Shown one piece after another: positions 18,205 to 41,949 of a stretch of 45,934 nt of DNA. Origin of the DNA: a virus; the IMG/VR virus record IMGVR_UViG_3300044717_000016, positions 1 through 45,934 of that record; one strand, written 5' to 3'. Positions within the stretch are counted from its first letter, which is position 1; each line of letters starts with the position of its first letter. The notes below the pieces were generated by a model that was not told the origin of the DNA, ran no database searches, and saw only the letters and a list, made by a program, of their open reading frames with translations. The translations under genes and the position numbers were made by a program.

Positions 18205-18582
18205 TTACTCGCCGGCCGGTGCCGACTCTTCGATCACGTCTATCTCGGCGTCGGGGAACTGGGCGCGCAGTGCCTGCTCGGTTGCGCTCGACACGACGCC
18301 GATGCTGCGACCGTCGTTGTCGAAACCGGAGTCCCTGAACATGCCGCGGAAGTTCCCCACCCGGAGGGCACGAGCATCGACGACGGCCTGCTTGACCACA
18401 GGCTCCTGTCCACCCTCGTCCACAGGCTCCTGTCCACCCTCGTCCACAGGCTCCTGTCCACCCTCGTCCACAGGCTCCTGTCCACCCTCGTCCACAGGCT
18501 CCTGTCCACCCTCGTCCACAGGCTCCTGTCCACCCTCGTCCACAGGCTCCTGTCCACCCTCGTCGTTGGTTTTCTTAGCCAT
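18205..18582 (-). CDS. Repeat-bearing small virion-module protein
   Basis: 125 aa: MAKKTN, then seven exact copies of the octapeptide DEGGQEPV (residues 7-62), then a 63-residue globular part (ALRVGNFRGMFRDSGFDNDG...). The ribosome binding site GGAGA lies ahead of ATG 18582. It occupies the place of decoration or stabilising proteins next to the capsid gene. The acidic repeat should be an unstructured spacer; the C-terminal part has no recognised family. Confidence 0.7.
   Translation of the reverse strand: MAKKTNDEGGQEPVDEGGQEPVDEGGQEPVDEGGQEPVDEGGQEPVDEGGQEPVDEGGQEPVVKQAVVDARALRVGNFRGMFRDSGFDNDGRSIGVVSSATEQALRAQFPDAEIDVIEESAPAGE
18397..18564 (-). repeat. Seven perfect 24-bp tandem repeats
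   Basis: Seven adjacent identical copies of a 24-bp unit (plus strand CACAGGCTCCTGTCCACCCT + CGTC) in phase with the reading frame, encoding DEGGQEPV each time. Identity is complete, including third codon positions, which points to recent expansion by slippage or recombination. Confidence 0.95.
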
Positions 18583-22802: not shown

Positions 22803-24785
22803 TCACTCCTCACTATCGAGCGGGATGACCGTCCTCTTCCCCGACTTGTTGCAGAATGTCACGGCATCAACCTTGACCTTCGTCCCCGACAGGAAATCGT
22901 CGCCCGAATATCCTTCGCCCTTCCCGGACTGCACGTATGCGATGGTCGCGTGCGGCACGTACTCCGGGTGTGTGTCCGTGTGCTCCAGCGCGTCGGCGAT
23001 CTTCTGATTCAATCGCTTCAGCGCCGCGCCCTTCACCTCGACGATGACCACGTCGAACTCCTCGCCCTCGAAGACCGCGGTCTTACCGAGCGTGAGCGTG
23101 AAAGGCTTAACGCCCTTCAGCGCCTCGCGCACGTCGTCGGCGCTGTTCGTCTCCAGCCCGTACTTGATCGTCACGTGCGGCCGAGCCTCGCGCCCGTCAC
23201 CGGCCACCTCGCCGTCGGGGATGCCCTCACCGAAGGCGATGATCTCGTCGGCCACGTCGCCCGGCAGGTCAACCTGTGTCGTCGAGTACTGGTGCGCCGA
23301 CTTCCTGACGACATGCTCGAACGGTAGGCCGGAGCGCAGCATCAGACGGGCTCCGGCTGTGAGCCGCTTACCCGAAGCGGCATCGCCCGCGGTACCACCG
23401 GCGGTATCACCTTCACCCTCAAGCGGAGCCTCCGGTGCGGGTTCCGGCTCCGGCTCTTTCAACTTGCCGCTCTCGTCGAAATATTGCGCGTTCAGTGCCG
23501 AGAGCGGGATGTAGCTGCCCTGTGTCTTCAGCAGTGGCTCGTCGGCGATGGGCAAGTCGAAGGTCGGCTTGCCTGCGTCTCTCGCCGCTTGATTGATTGT
23601 CACCCACGGCACCTGACCGGTCTGCTTCTCACTCACCTCCGACTGTAATTTTTCATCTCTGCGTGACATGATCGGATAGTCGATCATGCAGTTGTGCTCA
23701 CTGACGGGGCCCCACTTGCGCGTCAGGTGCAGATTCTCCATCTCCTTGATGCGCCACAGGAGTGCGCCCGGCCCCTTGTCCGCGTTCTCCAAGAGCGATT
23801 CGGTGTTGGCGCGCGAGGCATCGACCAGCTCGCCCAGCATGGCCAGCGGAAGCTGAAAGATAGCCGCGACCATGCGCTTGAAAAAAAGAAGCTTGTCGAG
23901 CGCCTTTAGGTCGCGCTCGGAGGCGTTGAAGGGGATGAACTTTGAATTCTTCCCGCCCGAAATGACGGCGAAGAAATTCCTGATCTGCTGAATTTCCTGG
24001 CGGAAGGCATCCACCTGTTCTTTGGTGTAGCCCTCGCCGAGGTCGAAGGCGCCGCCCGGCGTGCGGTCGATGAGCTGCTGGAGAAACTGGTCGCTCCCCT
24101 GAAGGAGAGCCCGGATCGAGGTGTCGAGAAGCTCGACGTGCGAGAGGCCGAGCAGGTCGTAAGAGCGCGGGCGGTTGACGAGCGTCATGCACATCTGGTC
24201 CGGCAGCCAGCGCTTGACCTGCCGGTCGAAGGTCAACTCACAGTAGCGCGGCAGACTTGCGTCGGTGCCGTCCCATCCGGGGACAAAGGCGACGCGCTCG
24301 GCGTCCAGCGGGAAGATGCCCCAGGGCGTGGTGTCGCGGTTGATGCCGAGTTCCATCGAGCCGTGGCCGACGACGAGGAAGTCTTCGGTGAACTTGCCCT
24401 TGACGGTGCTGTAGGGCTCGAAGCCGTTCGGGGTCGCGAGGACCGCCTTGATCTCGGCGCGGACGCTCTCATTCATGGGGCGCGTCTGGTCGTAAGGAAC
24501 CACCTGCCACTCGGCCTGCTCGATGCAGTTGCGATAGATGTCGAGCGCGGCGCGCACCGGCTCCGAATGCTCGGCGTACTGGCGCAGCAGCAGCACCCGG
24601 CGCTTGACGAAGAGGCGGGACATGTCGCCCACAGTGCCCCGGAGGACGACGAGCGCGCGGTTGGCCGAGCCGCCGTCGAGACCGCCGCCGAGCATCTGAT
24701 CGTCGAGAGATTTATCGGTCTGCTCCCACTCCCCGAAGCCCGTGAGCGCTTTCGCGCCGCTGATCACCTTGCCAAGTAAGCTCAT
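22803..24785 (-). CDS. Portal protein fused to a 2H phosphoesterase (LigT-like) domain
   Basis: 660 aa, ATGA overlap with the upstream small gene. Residues about 50-420 are a portal: HSEPVRAALDIYRNCIEQAE, FLVVGHGSMELGINRDTTPW, and the helix KEMENLHLTRKWGPVSEHNC. An acidic Pro/Glu/Gly-rich linker (about 445-470) is followed at 496-660 by a separate domain starting HQYSTTQVDLPGDVADEIIA with two H-x-T motifs, HVT at 537-539 and HAT at 612-614, the catalytic signature of 2H phosphoesterases. Such enzymes open cyclic or 2',3'-linked nucleotides; some phage members (Acb1) destroy CBASS signals. Terminase lies just upstream, confirming portal identity. Confidence 0.85.
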   Translation of the reverse strand: MSLLGKVISGAKALTGFGEWEQTDKSLDDQMLGGGLDGGSANRALVVLRGTVGDMSRLFVKRRVLLLRQYAEHSEPVRAALDIYRNCIEQAEWQVVPYDQTRPMNESVRAEIKAVLATPNGFEPYSTVKGKFTEDFLVVGHGSMELGINRDTTPWGIFPLDAERVAFVPGWDGTDASLPRYCELTFDRQVKRWLPDQMCMTLVNRPRSYDLLGLSHVELLDTSIRALLQGSDQFLQQLIDRTPGGAFDLGEGYTKEQVDAFRQEIQQIRNFFAVISGGKNSKFIPFNASERDLKALDKLLFFKRMVAAIFQLPLAMLGELVDASRANTESLLENADKGPGALLWRIKEMENLHLTRKWGPVSEHNCMIDYPIMSRRDEKLQSEVSEKQTGQVPWVTINQAARDAGKPTFDLPIADEPLLKTQGSYIPLSALNAQYFDESGKLKEPEPEPAPEAPLEGEGDTAGGTAGDAASGKRLTAGARLMLRSGLPFEHVVRKSAHQYSTTQVDLPGDVADEIIAFGEGIPDGEVAGDGREARPHVTIKYGLETNSADDVREALKGVKPFTLTLGKTAVFEGEEFDVVIVEVKGAALKRLNQKIADALEHTDTHPEYVPHATIAYVQSGKGEGYSGDDFLSGTKVKVDAVTFCNKSGKRTVIPLDSEE

Positions 24786-30655: not shown

Positions 30656-31888
30656 TCAATTCGCCTTCAGCTTTTCGTGTCGGCACCGCGCCGCTCCTTT
30701 ATCGTATCCCTCCGGGTACCACATCCCAGTGCCGAAGCAGTCCGGGCATTGCGTCGCGCTGGCGATGCGTGCCGCCGGCGTCTGCTGCCCCTGTGACGCG
30801 GTTTCGGCGTCGAGCTGGCGCTTCTCCTTCTTCCACAACCGGCGACGCAGATGCTCGGCGAGAAACGCAGGCGCGCTGGAGACTGTCGTGCGACCGGCGG
30901 CAATTTTCAGCTCCGTGACGAGCAGTTCCGCTACTTCCGCCCAGCGCTCGCCCTCAGCCGCGGTGGTTCTCTTCCCCGTCACCTCGATTGTTGCCCGGTG
31001 CAGCCGAGAAACTAGTTCGGCGAAAGCCTCATCATCAGTTTTTTGCTCAATAGTCTTAAAAGAAGTCTTAGGCTCGCCGGAAGTGTTTACGTCGCTTGAA
31101 GATAAGGTACTACCGGTACTACCACTTTCCGGTATTACCGGTAGTACCGAATTTCGGGTAATCTCGGTACTACCGATTCGATTGGTAGTACTGGTTAAAT
31201 CGGATAGACCGAAAACGCCCGCTGCTACCTCCTCGGGGGTGAACACCTCATATTCGTTTCCGCTATTTTCCCCAACGATTGTCTTGACGGAAACCAGCCC
31301 GACGGTTTGGAGATGCGCCAGCGCGGCGTCCACTGTGCCCATCGATCCGAACCCTGCCGCGGCCTTGATCTGAGGGCGGGAGCGACGCACGGTGCGAGAG
31401 GGAACGACGGCACCGCGCGACTGGCTCCAGAGATAGTCCCACACGTGCTTGCTCTTGCCCTTGAAGAGTCGCTCCGCCATCGCGGCGCGCGTGATTGAAT
31501 TCGGCACCTTTTGAAAATCACGTTCGGGGGATACTGCGGACACTTCCCTGACGACCCCGGCCTGCTTGGTACTATCATCTTTGCCGGTACTACCAGTTCG
31601 CTTAGTAGTACCTACTTTCCGGCTACTACCGGCTTTACCGGTAATACCTAAAACATCGGTACTACCAGTCTCGGCGGTAGTACCGGCATGTTCGGTACTA
31701 CCACTTTTATCGGTAGTACCGCTGGCTTCGATATGTGCTCCGTCATCGGGAAGGGAGCCGCCGTAGATGATCTCCTCAATCGGGTGACGCTCGGTCGGGA
31801 GTTTGACGCGGTCGAACATCCCCGCGCCTGAGAGCCTTCCCGGTGTCCGCGTCTTGATGGGTTCCTTTTTCTCTTTAGGATCAGTCAC
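30656..31888 (-). CDS. Winged-helix replication initiator candidate with internal iterons
   Basis: 410 aa, GTG start at 31888 in a GTGA overlap with parA. Residues about 57-107 are a 6-residue repeat G(S/T)Txxx, the translation of 18-bp iterons. Residues about 120-225 are a winged-helix domain (KVPNSITRAAMAERLFKGKS, SRPQIKAAAGFGSMGTVDAA, LAHLQTVGLVSVKTI). Residues about 232-261 come from a second iteron cluster. The C-terminal part has a helical region and a C-x2-C...C-x-H-like end (CPDCFGTG...CRHEK). The overall plan, DNA-binding protein with origin repeats inside its own gene, copies lambda O. A centromere-binding partner of ParA is the main alternative. Confidence 0.65.
   Translation of the reverse strand: MTDPKEKKEPIKTRTPGRLSGAGMFDRVKLPTERHPIEEIIYGGSLPDDGAHIEASGTTDKSGSTEHAGTTAETGSTDVLGITGKAGSSRKVGTTKRTGSTGKDDSTKQAGVVREVSAVSPERDFQKVPNSITRAAMAERLFKGKSKHVWDYLWSQSRGAVVPSRTVRRSRPQIKAAAGFGSMGTVDAALAHLQTVGLVSVKTIVGENSGNEYEVFTPEEVAAGVFGLSDLTSTTNRIGSTEITRNSVLPVIPESGSTGSTLSSSDVNTSGEPKTSFKTIEQKTDDEAFAELVSRLHRATIEVTGKRTTAAEGERWAEVAELLVTELKIAAGRTTVSSAPAFLAEHLRRRLWKKEKRQLDAETASQGQQTPAARIASATQCPDCFGTGMWYPEGYDKGAARCRHEKLKAN
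31106..31192. repeat. Iteron cluster 2 (GGTASTACC motifs)
   Basis: Copies or near-copies of the 9-bp dyad GGTA(C/G)TACC at 31106, 31115, 31131, 31140, 31157 (degenerate), 31166 and 31184. Spacings are 9, 16, 9, 17, 9 and 18 bp. Directly to the left (31031-31070) is an A/T-rich stretch, 29 of 40 bases by my count, in an otherwise GC-rich gene: a candidate unwinding element. Confidence 0.8.
31568..31720. repeat. Iteron cluster 1: nine motifs at an 18-bp period
   Basis: Nine copies of GGTASTACC or close variants start at 31568, 31586, 31604, 31622, 31640, 31658, 31676, 31694 and 31712, that is, exactly every 18 bp. C- and G-centre versions alternate in part, so sites face alternately. The half between cores is variable, so selection is on the 9-bp core. 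Not noticed elsewhere in the window. Confidence 0.9.
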
Positions 31889-32685
31889 CCGACTTCCTCC
31901 TTAGCGACCAGTTTCAGGTGAGAACTCATCGAGAGCCTGCTGAGAATCTCGTCCGTCAGATTCTCGTAGTCCTCGCTGCCGGCAGACTTGGGCGAGTGCT
32001 CGTAAATGCTCTTACGGTAGGCCGGCGCAACCTGTAGGCTCACGTTGTCGCGGATGATCGTCTCGAAGACATCATCCCCGAACATCTCTTTAACCTTCGT
32101 CAGCGCCTCGGCGCAGATGTTCTTGCGCTGATGAAACCGCGTCACCAGGTAGCCGAGCATCGAGAGGCGGGGGTTGGGCTGACGTGCGAAGCGGATAGTC
32201 TCCTGAAGGTCGGCGACGCCCTCCAGCGGGTAATACTCGGCGGCGATCGGGACGATGATGTGTGTTGAAGCCAGGAGCGCCTGCGTCAGCGTGAGGCCGA
32301 GCGTATGCGGGCAGTCGAGGATGACGAAATCGTAGGGGTCGGGAAGAGAACTGAGCGCCTCCTTGAGTCGGTACTGCTCCTGGAGCGTGACCATCTGGTC
32401 GAGCATGGCGACCCGGATGTGGCTGGGGACGAGATCGAGTTTGTCGATGTGCGTGGCGTAGCGCGCCTCTTCGAGCAGGATGCGATTGTCATGCCCGACG
32501 AGCACGTCAGCGAGCGTGACCGTGATCTGCTCGGGCTCAAAGTAGGTCTGCGTCGAGTTGCGCTGGCTGTCGAGGTCCATCAGCAGCGTCTTATAGCCCC
32601 GGATGGCGAGGCCGGCGGCCAGGTTAACGGCCGTTGTGGTCTTGCCCACCCCGCCTTTCTGATTGGCGATAGAGATCGTCTTCAA
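31885..32685 (-). CDS. parA: ParA/Soj-type partition ATPase
   Basis: 266 aa, TTG start at 32685 in a TTGA overlap with the HTH gene. Deviant Walker A KGGVGKTTT at residues 10-18, MDLDSQRNST (Walker A'), and FVILDCPHTLG (Walker B) define a ParA/MinD-family ATPase without an N-terminal HTH domain. It would move replicated DNA along the nucleoid together with a centromere-binding protein. No ParB of the usual type is present; the HTH protein upstream or the iteron-bearing protein downstream could fill that place. Confidence 0.9.
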   Translation of the reverse strand: MKTISIANQKGGVGKTTTAVNLAAGLAIRGYKTLLMDLDSQRNSTQTYFEPEQITVTLADVLVGHDNRILLEEARYATHIDKLDLVPSHIRVAMLDQMVTLQEQYRLKEALSSLPDPYDFVILDCPHTLGLTLTQALLASTHIIVPIAAEYYPLEGVADLQETIRFARQPNPRLSMLGYLVTRFHQRKNICAEALTKVKEMFGDDVFETIIRDNVSLQVAPAYRKSIYEHSPKSAGSEDYENLTDEILSRLSMSSHLKLVAKEEVG

Positions 32686-32891
32686 GCTGCCTCCTTCCTC
32701 TGCTTCTTAGGCCGTCCCATCTTTGGCGACTCGAAGCCCTCCAGATCCCGCTCGGGAATTAACCACACGGCTCCGCGAGGGGTGTCCTCCAGGTAGGCGT
32801 TTGGGAAGCGCCCCTGCTGGCACCACATGCGGACGAGACGCGCCTCTTTGCCGAGGCGCTCAGCGACTTGTGTTGAAGTCAGATCTGCCAT
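32682..32891 (-). CDS. Small HTH (excisionase/MerR-like) DNA-binding protein
   Basis: 69 aa from ATG 32891. LTSTQVAERLGKEARLVRMW and the following CQQGRFPNAYLEDTPRGAVW are an HTH_17/excisionase-type domain, and the C-terminus is basic (GRPKKQRKEAA). A start at 32927 is unlikely because it would include the promoter. The predicted transcription start falls at the ATG, implying a leaderless message. First gene of the parA-initiator operon; likely autoregulator, or ParB substitute. Confidence 0.75.
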   Translation of the reverse strand: MADLTSTQVAERLGKEARLVRMWCQQGRFPNAYLEDTPRGAVWLIPERDLEGFESPKMGRPKKQRKEAA

Positions 32892-36836: not shown

Positions 36837-37238
36837 TTAAGACTCCCCCATCGCCCGCTTGAGCGCGGCGTATTTCTCCGCGGTCACGGCCTCCCGGCGA
36901 TGCATCTCGGCGATAATCACGTCCTTCGGGAAAACCTGCGCGGACCTCTCGGCGGCGCGCGCGGCCTCCAGCGCCCGGACGAACTGGCGCGCGGCCTGCA
37001 CCACGTCAGCCGCGGCCCCCGCCGCCTCGGCGAGCGCGCGCCCGTCGGCAACCCCCTTGTCGTAGGCGGAGACTAGCCAGTTGAAGATGTCCTGTCTCAG
37101 ACACTCCGGGTTCAAGTGGAACGCCGCCCCGTCGAGGATCGCGTCCCGACCGCGCGCCGCGTACTTCAGCCCAGCCGCCGTGCTCGGCAGCGACCCTTCC
37201 GCCTCCTCATGGCCGCGCCGGTCGCGTTGGTCTGTCAC
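36837..37238 (-). CDS. Hypothetical protein next to the recombinase
   Basis: 133 aa; ATGA overlap with the recombinase gene upstream, so they are co-translated. Helical, Ala/Glu/Arg-rich second half (VVQAARQFVRALEAARAAER). Possibly a recombination directionality or accessory factor, by position only. Confidence 0.6.
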   Translation of the reverse strand: MTDQRDRRGHEEAEGSLPSTAAGLKYAARGRDAILDGAAFHLNPECLRQDIFNWLVSAYDKGVADGRALAEAAGAAADVVQAARQFVRALEAARAAERSAQVFPKDVIIAEMHRREAVTAEKYAALKRAMGES

Positions 37239-38209
37239 AGGCCGCCTCTCGCGGGCCGCAGGTGCAGGGACGGGTGTCGCTTCCGCAGCACGCGGACCAT
37301 GTGCTCCTTACTAACGTGCGTGTAGCGCTGGGTGGTCGCGATAGAGGCGTGTCCCAGGAACTCCTGCACGACCCGGATGTCGGCGCCGTTCTTGAGCAGC
37401 AATGTCGCCACCGTGTGGCGAAGCATGTGCGGGGTGATGTGACGCCTGATCCGCGCCTCCCGGCGCAGGCGCGCGATCACGTAAGTTATCCCCTGAGTCG
37501 AGAGCCGCTCGCCTGAGGGGTTGAGGAACAGCGCCGGGCAGTCCGTCCTGACGCGCGACCGCGCCTCCAAGTGTGTGCGCTGTATCCGCAGCGTCTGCTC
37601 GTCGACGACGAATGCCAGTCGGTCCCTGCCCCCCTTTCCCTGCACCCTGAAGACCGCCTCTCTGGAGGAGTAATCCCGCACGTCCAGCGCAGAGACTTCA
37701 CCCACGCGCATGCCCGTGGCGAAAAGGAGGTCAACCAGCGCGAGGTCTCGCAGCGCGCGGTAGACGCCGACGGGCTGTCCATCCGCCTCCTCGCCTTGCC
37801 CGGCCGAGACGGCGAGATAGTTTCGCTGCGCGCGCCTCAACAGCGAGCGCATCTCCCACTCGGTTAAAGCCCGGGGGAGCTGCTCGACGCGGCCGAAGCT
37901 TAGCTTCACTCTCCAGAAGGGCGACTCCGTCAGCACTCCCTTACGCACCCAGTAAGAGCAGAACACCTTGAGCGCGACGACCTTCCGCCGTATCGAGGCG
38001 GGCGCGTACTGTTCCTCACGCAGGTGTGCCGCCCAGCTCTCTATCAGAGAGCTGTCGAGAGACGAGAGAGTGACCTCGTCGCCGGCGAAAGCGTTGAACT
38101 GAGCGAGGTCGCAGCGGTAGGCCGACTCAGTCTTCTCCCCACGCCCGTACGTCGAGAAGTAACCGCGCAGAAACTCAACGGCGGCATTACTTAATCGCAT
38201 ATCACTCAT
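37235..38209 (-). CDS. Tyrosine recombinase, XerC/D-like
   Basis: 324 aa. N-terminal SAM-like core-binding domain (residues 1-110), then the catalytic domain with Arg168 (TGMRVGEV), Lys192 (GKGGRDR), His261/Arg264 (HMLRHTVATLLL), His287 (LGHASIATT) and Tyr296 (RYTHV): a full set. Xer-like enzymes integrate phage DNA or resolve multimers of circular replicons. One of two recombinases encoded almost back to back. Confidence 0.9.
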   Translation of the reverse strand: MSDMRLSNAAVEFLRGYFSTYGRGEKTESAYRCDLAQFNAFAGDEVTLSSLDSSLIESWAAHLREEQYAPASIRRKVVALKVFCSYWVRKGVLTESPFWRVKLSFGRVEQLPRALTEWEMRSLLRRAQRNYLAVSAGQGEEADGQPVGVYRALRDLALVDLLFATGMRVGEVSALDVRDYSSREAVFRVQGKGGRDRLAFVVDEQTLRIQRTHLEARSRVRTDCPALFLNPSGERLSTQGITYVIARLRREARIRRHITPHMLRHTVATLLLKNGADIRVVQEFLGHASIATTQRYTHVSKEHMVRVLRKRHPSLHLRPARGGL

Positions 38210-38469: not shown

Positions 38470-39510
38470 TCAATCGCCCGGCGGGCTGTAAGGAACCGGC
38501 AGCAGCCGCACGGCGGAGGCCATCTGCCGCTCGTCGCGCCGGTCGTAACGCCGGGTCGTGGTAAAGCTCGCGTGCCGCCCAAGCTTCTGCGCGGTCGAGC
38601 CGTCGGTCAGCGAGAGCATTTCCGAGATGTAGGTGCGCCGCAGGTCGTGCGGCGTGAACGGCATCACGCGCGCCGCACGCGCCATGCGTTTGACGACGAG
38701 ATAGACGGCCTGACCTGAAAGGCCACGCCCGCGCTCGATCTTCCCGGTCTGCGTCACGGGCGCGAGCAGAGGCCCGGCAGAGCGGCCGCGCACGGCGATC
38801 CAGTCGCGCAGGGCGCGCGCCGCCCCCAGGGGCAGCGGGAGCGCCGCCGTCCGGCCGCCCTTGCCCCGCAGGCGCAGCGCGCCCGCCTGCGGGTCGAACG
38901 CTTCCGAGGGCAGCGCGCCCGCCTCGTCGCGCCGCAGGCCCGCGCCGTAGAGCAGGGCGAGCAGTGCCGCGTCGCGCCGGCCCCGCGCCCCCGAGTCGCG
39001 CGCGCACATCTTGAAGAGCCGGGCAATCTCGCGGCGCGAGAGCATACGACCGGGCGGGAGCGCCTCGTGGCGCACGCCGGGCACGCGGAGGATGGCGTGC
39101 AGGTCGGCGGGCGAGATGAGCCCCGCGTCGCAGGCGATGCGCGCCGTCTGCCTGAGCGCCGCCAGCGTGAGGTTGACCGTCGAGGCAGAAGCCTTGTCCG
39201 CCAGGAGCCGCGCCTTGATGTATTTGACGTGCTCGAAGCGCAGCGTCTCCCACGCAAAGGTGGCAACGGTCGCGCCCGGGCGCAGGTAGCGCACCGCCCG
39301 CTCCAGGCGCGCGCGCATACTCCGGCGGCCTGATTCCGACAAGTCCCAGAGATAAGAGGCGGCCGGATTAACCTGCCCCATGCCGGGGAGCAGATCGGAG
39401 AGCGAATCGCCCGGCCGCAGCACCCCCTGGGGCCGGGCGGCGGTGGCCACGACCCGGAGGTGTCCCGCCGCTCGCGAAGCGCTTTCGTGATTCAGCCTTC
39501 TCATAAGCAC
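38470..39510 (-). CDS. Second tyrosine recombinase
   Basis: 346 aa, start GTG 39510 (or ATG 39504), GGGGG before. Catalytic set Arg193 (GAGLRRDEA), Lys217 (GKGGRTA), His288/Arg291 (HDLRRTYI), His313 (LGRHASFTTT), Tyr322. Higher GC than the first recombinase and only distantly similar to it. Two complete recombinases may divide integration and resolution, or one may be a later arrival. Confidence 0.88.
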   Translation of the reverse strand: MLMRRLNHESASRAAGHLRVVATAARPQGVLRPGDSLSDLLPGMGQVNPAASYLWDLSESGRRSMRARLERAVRYLRPGATVATFAWETLRFEHVKYIKARLLADKASASTVNLTLAALRQTARIACDAGLISPADLHAILRVPGVRHEALPPGRMLSRREIARLFKMCARDSGARGRRDAALLALLYGAGLRRDEAGALPSEAFDPQAGALRLRGKGGRTAALPLPLGAARALRDWIAVRGRSAGPLLAPVTQTGKIERGRGLSGQAVYLVVKRMARAARVMPFTPHDLRRTYISEMLSLTDGSTAQKLGRHASFTTTRRYDRRDERQMASAVRLLPVPYSPPGD

Positions 39511-40027: not shown

Positions 40028-40156
40028 ACGACCTTTCTCCTTCCACTTCGCAACGGCCAGCAAGTGCAGTCCGCCCGGCCCCTGCGACATGGCGCGAGCG
40101 ACGACGGCCCGGTCGGCGAAGTGGACGGCGAGATCGATTGTCCAGTCGAGTTTCAT
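40025..40156 (-). CDS. Tiny hypothetical protein
   Basis: 43 aa starting in a TGATG overlap with the HerA-like gene: MKLDWTIDLAVHFADRAVVA. Translationally coupled, so likely real, function unknown. Confidence 0.5.
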   Translation of the reverse strand: MKLDWTIDLAVHFADRAVVARAMSQGPGGLHLLAVAKWKEKGR

Positions 40157-41949
40157 CAACTGAGCCCCTCCGGAAATAGGAGACCGGTTGCCCGGACGGA
40201 GCCCGGCTGCGGATAGTCGATCAGTCCGAGGCTCCGGAGCGAACCCAGATTGTTGGCGTAGCCCGAGCTGGTGGCGCTCTGTTCCGACAGCTCGGCCAGC
40301 GTCGCTTTGCTGATCGCAGACGGATGGCGGTCGATGAGCGCGCGGAGGATCTTCACTTTCGGTGAGGAGAGCTTCGCGAACCAGGCGCGGTGCAACTCGT
40401 CGAGCGACGCGATGGGGGCGGAGTCGCCGGCGCACGCAAGCCCCGCCCCTGTCAGCGCGACCTGCCCGCCCGCGAGATACTCGATGAGCCCGAGCATGCG
40501 CAGCCGCCCCAGGTTATTCGCGTAGCCCGAGCTGGTGGGCGACTGGTCGCTGAAGACAGCCACGTTACTCTTCGAGACCGGCTCCAGGCCGAGGAGGCGG
40601 AAGGATTGCAGCGTGTCGAGGATGCGCTGCATCGGGCGCGTCACATCGCCGTCAGCAACAGGGGCTGGTTGAGCCGCGCGGCCCGACGGTGCCGGCTGAG
40701 GGACGGCGCGGGGAGCTTTGGGGGCGAAATTGCTAATCGGTGGGTGAGCCGCGGTGTCCTTCGCCATTCCCAACCGCCTCACGCCTTCGAGCATGAATTC
40801 CCGAATCTCGTCCGTCGCTTGCAGCGCCGCGCGCATCTCCTCGGCGTACACTCTCAGGGCTTCGAGGTTTGCAACGCAGCGCTCGACGCGCGCGATCTGC
40901 GCGTCGGTGATGACGGGCACTTCGATTCGTTCGACTCTGGTTGCGGCCTCGGCCACCACGCGAGGCAAATCCTTTTTGAGCTTTTCCGCCTCACGCTTCA
41001 ATTCCGCCACCTGGCGCTTCAATTCCTCCGGGTCGTTAGCTTTCGCTTTCTCGATACTGTCGGCGATCTTTTCCTTCAGCTCCTCTAGGTCAACTGGGGC
41101 CAGCTTCGCGGGCGTGACACGCCGCTCGCCCACTCTGGGCGTCGCTGACGAGTTAAACGTCTCGCGCGCGCGGACTTGGATGAGGCGGAATTCCTCCAGC
41201 CAGCTCGGGCTGTAGAACCACGCCTCGCCCGTCTTCAGCGACGCGAGCGTCGCCGACACCTCTTCGAGCTGCGACTTGTCGCCGTTGCGTTTGACCCAGT
41301 CCTTCACGGCGTCCTGGTCCTGCGGCGAAGTGGTCTGCAGCGCGATGATCACTTCGACCTGGGTGAGGACGTTTTTGTTGAGCACGGCGGGGCGCTGCGT
41401 GATCAGCGTCATGCCGAGGCCCCGGATGCCGCCGCGCCGCACCAGATCCTCGAACGCGCCGAGCATCGTGCGCTGTCCGGGCGTCGGCTGCTGCGGCGCG
41501 AACGCGTCCGCCTCGTCGATGAAGAGATGCAGCGGATCGCGGTGCTTGTCCTTCAGCCGGTAGAGGCGTCTGGCGAAGTCGGTGGCGAAGCGGTCCTGCG
41601 CGTCGTTCGACTCCGTGTCAGAGAGGTCGATGACGTAGAAGCCCGGGTGCTCGACGACGAGCTCGGCAATAACCTTCCCCGACGCGGCGTCGAGCGGCAG
41701 GTCGCCGTGCAGTCCGCCGACGATGACGACGGGCAGCCCCTCGGACTTGCCATCGGCGGAGGAGCGCAGGCCCCACCAGGCCCCCGTCGGGTCGAGGACG
41801 ACGAACGGGAGGCCGGCCCTGGCCATCTCCTCCGCGATCACTGAAGCGGTGTAGGTCTTCCCCACCCGGCGCTTGGCCAGGATCGCGAAAGTCTGCGTCA
41901 CGGCGTCGAGCGGGAGCGTGAGGTCGTCTGAAATTTTAAGTGTTTTCAT
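40156..41949 (-). CDS. HerA/FtsK-like ATPase with two winged-helix units
   Basis: 597 aa. AAA-like ATPase (residues 1-250): AILAKRRVGKT (GKT at 30-32; the first Gly of the usual loop is Ala), Walker B HLFIDEAD (141-148), sensor ITQRPAVLNK. Then a coiled coil (about 295-345: LKRQVAELKREAEKLKKDLP), and two repeats at 458-507 and 546-597 sharing S-x2-S-x-TSSGYANNLG-x-LR-x-LGLI. HerA-like motors move DNA in repair, conjugation and anti-phage systems. In this phage it could act in DNA processing or segregation. No nuclease partner (NurA) or Sir2/DUF4297 is adjacent. Confidence 0.8.
   Translation of the reverse strand: MKTLKISDDLTLPLDAVTQTFAILAKRRVGKTYTASVIAEEMARAGLPFVVLDPTGAWWGLRSSADGKSEGLPVVIVGGLHGDLPLDAASGKVIAELVVEHPGFYVIDLSDTESNDAQDRFATDFARRLYRLKDKHRDPLHLFIDEADAFAPQQPTPGQRTMLGAFEDLVRRGGIRGLGMTLITQRPAVLNKNVLTQVEVIIALQTTSPQDQDAVKDWVKRNGDKSQLEEVSATLASLKTGEAWFYSPSWLEEFRLIQVRARETFNSSATPRVGERRVTPAKLAPVDLEELKEKIADSIEKAKANDPEELKRQVAELKREAEKLKKDLPRVVAEAATRVERIEVPVITDAQIARVERCVANLEALRVYAEEMRAALQATDEIREFMLEGVRRLGMAKDTAAHPPISNFAPKAPRAVPQPAPSGRAAQPAPVADGDVTRPMQRILDTLQSFRLLGLEPVSKSNVAVFSDQSPTSSGYANNLGRLRMLGLIEYLAGGQVALTGAGLACAGDSAPIASLDELHRAWFAKLSSPKVKILRALIDRHPSAISKATLAELSEQSATSSGYANNLGSLRSLGLIDYPQPGSVRATGLLFPEGLS

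Follow-up and report, generated by a model that had tools for sequence, protein, structure and literature searches.

A phage initiator-like gene with repeat clusters on both sides of its winged-helix segment, a probable self-encoded origin

An initiator-like gene in a metagenomic virus genome carries two clusters of the DNA word GGTANTACC, one on each side of the part that encodes its winged helix, and its homologues keep this double-cluster layout with words of their own. We interpret the gene as a self-encoded phage origin of the lambda-O/RepA_N kind, in which the initiator gene would carry its own origin; from sequence comparison, we estimate the probability of this reading at roughly 0.77.

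The operon and the repeats in the initiator-like gene

The window is the whole stretch of DNA analysed, a metagenomic virus record of 45,934 bases (IMG/VR IMGVR_UViG_3300044717_000016), which, to judge from its large terminase and other minus-strand genes that look structural, is a tailed phage. GC skew is uninformative here because nearly all genes run in one direction. The initiator-like gene lies directly after parA on the minus strand, with a 4-bp overlap at its start. The features of this operon, in window coordinates, are as follows.

32682-32891, minus strand: small HTH_17-type gene, first in the operon (6.4e-6, just below the Pfam cut-off)
31885-32685, minus strand: parA, 266 aa, the upstream gene of the initiator operon (Pfam AAA_31, 6.5e-46; phrog_164, 8.9e-62)
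30656-31888, minus strand: initiator-like gene, an open reading frame of 410 aa with a GTG start (four homologues; AF2 model)
31763-31888, minus strand: N-terminal 42 residues, including the RHPIEEII helix, common to the ParA-linked relative L026 (AF2 model)
31568-31720, minus strand: cluster A, within disordered linker 1, with nine GGTANTACC sites at 18-bp intervals
31223-31504, minus strand: winged helix, residues 129-222, the presumed reader of the repeats (AF2 model, winged-helix matches and alignment)
31106-31192, minus strand: cluster B, within disordered linker 2, with six GGTANTACC sites distributed over two reading frames
31031-31075, no strand: A/T-rich stretch after cluster B, a possible unwinding element (33% GC, the minimum of the gene)
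30791-31039, minus strand: conserved helical C-terminal domain, residues 284-366 (alignment of relatives; AF2 model)
30668-30754, minus strand: C-terminal module CPDCFGTGMWYPEGYDKGAARCRH, also present in the lambda-O-like initiator of another phage

The open reading frame of the HTH_17-type gene runs to 32927, and its likely ATG at 32891 is placed by comparison with L026. Elsewhere in the window, two adjacent tyrosine recombinases (37235-38209 and 38470-39510, minus strand), one of them XerC/D-like, would together with parA suit a plasmid-maintained phage or dimer resolution. A HerA-like ATPase (40156-41949, minus strand) has two similar winged-helix-like copies at its C-terminus (LSEQSATSSGYANNLG motif), and a gene among the structural genes (18205-18582, minus strand) contains a perfect 24-bp unit seven times at 18396-18564, which encodes a GGQEPVDE-like octapeptide repeat.

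The initiator-like gene contains 11 perfect GGTANTACC sites and 15 with at most one mismatch. Synonymous-codon shuffles (n = 5,000) gave means of 0.55 perfect and 4.06 near-perfect sites, with maxima of 4 and 10. Dinucleotide shuffling of the whole window gave an expectation of 2.95 sites and a maximum of 9, compared with 16 found, 15 of which fall in this gene; the remaining one is a single-mismatch match at 23391. As originally predicted, both clusters lie inside one coding sequence, on each side of its winged-helix part, and the nine sites at 31568-31720 are spaced exactly 18 bp. The predicted nine copies of GGTASTACC comprise five perfect sites and four with one mismatch, and the second cluster, present at 31106-31192, holds six sites within one mismatch rather than about seven. 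The sites had also been described as facing alternately, which holds only partially: read along the gene, the centre bases run C,G,C,G,T,G,C,G,G.

Glycine is encoded by GGT at 11/11 site positions and at 4/28 positions elsewhere in the gene. In cluster A, the wobble bases are T in 9/9, T in 9/9 and C in 8/9 sites, while the centre base, which changes the amino acid, varies; the cores share 85% identity and the 9-bp spacers, which are unrelated, 35%. The G-S/T-T peptide that had been predicted every six residues is found in cluster A and does not extend to cluster B, where the peptide is GST or STT at four sites and VLP or VIP at the other two. Fixed wobble bases in the codons and the use of two reading frames by cluster B show that selection in the window gene acts on the DNA word, not the peptide.

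Homologues with the same layout and different words

Four homologues (L004, L025, L026 and L029), all metagenomic, were obtained from protein and alignment scans of IMG/VR, L026 being reached via its ParA. In a nine-protein comparison, they match the window protein with BLAST E-values of 3e-29 to 3e-86. tblastn gave no match in the phage collection with the window protein or the L025 and L029 homologues, and none in the plasmid collection with the window protein or L029; two bacterial-genome scans revealed no homologue. All five proteins have a common plan of a short N-terminus, linker 1, winged helix, linker 2 and helical C-terminus, which in the window protein is followed by a Cys/His module. 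The AF2 model of the window protein has pLDDT values of about 75-90 over residues 141-220, which cover most of the winged helix, and confidence near 30 in both linkers (residues 43-136 and 225-282). Foldseek with this model returned generic winged-helix regulators only, none at E<=0.001. A sequence search of the PDB with the window protein gave no match, Pfam gave none for its C-terminal domain, and by itself the protein has marginal profile matches only (0.02-0.26).

The five genomes use five words: GGTANTACC, CTAGTCAGA, ACCACCCA, CCCTCTAG and GGGACAGAG. In 5/5 genes, repeats occupy the disordered linkers on each side of the winged helix. The number of 8-mers common to linkers 1 and 2 is 106 in the window gene (shuffle mean 4.4), 37 in L026 (5.1), 58 in L029 (6.3), 75 in L025 (6.3) and 27 in L004 (2.9), and the observed value was reached by 0 of 1,000 shuffles in each gene. 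Comparison of linker 1 with linker 2 gave 54-155 common 7-mers within a genome and 1-24 between genomes, a diagonal matrix. The same k-mer test revealed no excess of a repeated word in the winged-helix segment of the five genes, and the C-terminal segment is near expectation (p 0.04-0.8). The words occupy two or three reading frames, and those of the relatives often occur in both orientations. Within the linker-1 cluster of L004, a perfect 19-bp inverted repeat with a 33-nt loop is present (L004:5936-6006).

None of the homologues found keeps the protein and loses the repeats; 4/4 retain both clusters together with the A/T tract. The letters of the core are not conserved between homologues, since the word differs in each while the double-cluster layout is kept. 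The dyad core and the G-S/T-T peptide of the original prediction are peculiar to the window phage and do not form a general rule. The dyad as a general form of the word was rejected: L026 has one (CTAGTCAGACTAG), and the words of L025, L004 and L029 look direct.

The predicted A/T-rich stretch has the stated 29 A/T in 40 positions, but it does not touch cluster B and ends 30 bp from it. In 5/5 homologous genes, the 45 bp of minimum GC fall after cluster B and before the DDE motif. The A/T excess over codon shuffles has p values of 0.066, 0.050, 0.0002, 0.0057 and 0.0015 in the five genes, with a combined value of 1.5e-7 that overstates independence because the genes are homologous. In the window gene alone, the bias is weak (p 0.02-0.07).

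Replication context, ParA and rival readings

The relatives link the gene to replication. In L026, a DnaC-like helicase loader lies directly downstream and overlaps the end of the initiator gene (phrog_50, 3e-48), and L004 and L029 have O-like or DnaD-like profile matches (3.9e-5 to 1.1e-4). No helicase loader was found in the window, G002, G003 or G004, and no DnaB-, DnaC- or phrog_678-type gene in the window. In the record of L026, the DnaC-like gene is followed by about 1.1 kb without clear genes (L033:18128-19259), which contains the palindrome AACAATTTGGTCGCGACCAAATTGTT twice and the repeat ACCATATT several times. The records of three relatives contain a second, lambda-O-like initiator gene with its own intragenic iterons.

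L036:8784-9764: O-like gene of G002, word GGTACAAACTTTAGACC
L039:2991-4070: O-like gene of G003, word GGTAAGTCCCACTTACC
L034:14696-15661, minus strand: O-like gene of G001, word GATACGGCCAAACC, with a weaker profile (0.0014)

The two initiators of one genome have a C-terminal module in common in G002 (6e-12) and G001 (1e-7), and the C-terminal module of the window protein matches the one in the O-like gene of G002 (6e-11). Because this end is common to two initiators with different words, it suggests that the C-terminal end recruits the same replication machinery in both, and the pairs suggest that some relatives are two-origin phages in which each initiator has its own word. The resemblance of the module to the N-terminus of the L026 loader is not significant (E 0.05-0.09), nor is that of the window winged helix to the three O-like proteins by hhalign (probability 1%).

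The gene upstream of the initiator encodes ParA in three genomes, and in the other two its product is an AAA_22 ATPase (MuB/TniB/Cdc6-like). At the ATPase-initiator junctions, the two genes either share 4-11 bp or are separated by 4 bp. The ParA proteins of the window and L026 are 85% identical, and their initiators have in common a basic N-terminal stretch ending in RHPIEEII, which could be a ParA contact. Of the ParABS features, the window encodes the ParA ATPase. No ParB gene lies between parA and the initiator gene, the latter is the sole candidate ParA partner, and no other iterons, repeat array or parS were found around parA and the 3' flank.

These features would also suit a protein that acts only in partition, as a ParB-like partner of ParA whose repeats form an intragenic centromere rather than an origin. 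The gene follows parA with an overlapping start, the usual position of a ParA partner; its N-terminal 42 residues recur in the ParA-linked L026; there is no second repeat array near parA; and in every operon the ATPase is of the P-loop NTPase type. However, 2/5 genes have the AAA_22 ATPase in place of ParA, the long C-terminal domain is unrelated to ParB families (no Pfam match), and the A/T tract, the DnaC-type loader of L026 and the C-terminal modules of the O-like initiators fit replication, so we consider partition alone unlikely. The loader and O-like profiles of the relatives, together with the C-terminal modules common with iteron-bearing O-like genes, favour an initiator over a pure centromere protein, although the neighbour here is ParA, not a helicase loader, and only five members are known. 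A centromere read with ParA had been named as the main alternative to the origin; the role of ParA appears complementary to it, more than just an alternative. One protein could be both initiator and ParA partner, with the same sites serving as a joint origin and centromere. This reading extends the preferred self-encoded origin, so that the confidences in the two overlap, and it draws on the partition-related points plus all the replication evidence; the two separate clusters could also split the tasks. Against it, the AAA_22-linked relatives keep both clusters, which indicates that two clusters need no ParA, and the N-terminal comparison rests on few sequences, with a similar short helix possibly present in L025 (SRHLRNIL). 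We hold the joint function as a tentative possibility, and equally tentative is its fuller form, in which the word is replaced wholesale between lineages within a fixed layout and an AAA protein (MuB/TniB-like) takes the ParA role in sister lineages.

An autorepressor, whose winged helix binds sites in its own gene to block transcription, is quite unlikely: intragenic sites could serve as a roadblock and the nearest folds are the winged-helix regulators below significance, but there are no sites at the operon promoter, only the lone match at 23391 lies elsewhere in the window, and two arrays totalling fifteen sites, beside an A/T tract, are more than a repressor needs. Low complexity at the protein level is the remaining reading, in which the DNA repeat is a by-product, either of selection on the G-S/T-T peptide or of the expansion of a minisatellite. 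When IMG/VR was scanned for pairs of cores 18 bp apart, 20 other contigs were obtained, none recognised as homologous, and most of the genes inspected in them encode collagen-like (GXT) proteins or others of similarly low complexity. The window gene does not conform to this explanation, given its fixed wobble bases, variable centre base, unrelated spacers, two frames in cluster B and excess over codon shuffles. In the relatives, whose own words are translated in up to three frames, the resulting peptides are quite different. The shuffle and reading-frame results contradict it, and we regard it as highly improbable.

For the self-encoded origin, the winged helix would bind the GGTANTACC sites in its own gene, one cluster on each side of its coding part. 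Binding would wrap the origin and strain the adjoining stretch at 31031-31075 until it opens, and the C-terminal domain and Cys/His module would then recruit the helicase machinery. Coating of the sites, opening and recruitment are proposed by analogy with lambda O (PMC7466680). As the words sit in segments that encode disordered linkers, the sequence there would be free to obey the DNA. The 4-bp overlap makes translational coupling of parA and the initiator probable, and replication and partition (or copy control) would therefore probably proceed from one operon. The homologues and the replication context support the predicted origin within the initiator gene; binding of the repeats and replication from them are inferred.

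Relation to known systems

Intragenic origins are already known from lambda, RepA_N plasmids and repC, and one is postulated in P1 repL. In the lambda O gene with ori-lambda, and in Stx phage relatives, iterons followed by an A/T-rich tract lie inside the initiator gene (PMC7466680); intragenic iterons selected as DNA and a nearby A/T-rich tract are both present in the window gene. The DNA-binding domain before the iterons, the partner-binding domain after them and an adjoining helicase loader (here in L026) are further likenesses. However, lambda has a single cluster after the DNA-binding domain, whereas a second precedes it in the window gene; the operon here includes a ParA or AAA gene; and the window protein has no significant match to O families, so that membership of the O family by sequence is not established. 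RepA_N plasmids such as pSK41 have central Rep boxes in the part of rep that encodes the linker between the DNA-binding and C-terminal domains (PMC5703833), a placement similar to ours, but they have one array rather than two, and here an ATPase gene precedes and overlaps the initiator; Pfam gave no RepA_N match to the window protein at E<=1. RepABC plasmids have an origin inside repC with an essential A/T-rich part (PMC3155836) and likewise combine a ParA-type gene and an initiator in one operon, with the origin within the initiator gene. In contrast to the window gene, which has repeats and no RepC domain (Pfam), RepC lacks iterons and the operon has a separate ParB (RepB).

Phage-borne replication and partition modules also occur in P1, where an origin that needs an A/T tract is postulated inside repL (PMC9948254), and in mycobacteriophage RepA/parABS prophages, where an origin inside repA is suggested as one possibility (PMC7157519). 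The mycobacteriophages have no repeated motifs by repA except parS, and their ParB/parS is separate (PMC9948254, PMC7157519), whereas the repeats here lie inside the gene, and neither a separate ParB nor a parS was seen. In the literature searched, we found no double cluster around a DNA-binding domain, no conservation of such a layout despite a change of word, and no coupling of it to ParA or AAA genes.

The notable part of the finding is the complete change of word within a fixed double-cluster layout. Five distant phages with an identical layout and a fully changed word offer a natural series for studying joint change in an initiator and its sites while function is kept. Two codes share one gene, with the words confined to the segments that encode disordered linkers. 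A further suggestion from the family is that one protein may serve both replication and partition in a compact operon, and that some phages carry two initiators, each with its own word and, in two cases, a common C-terminal module.
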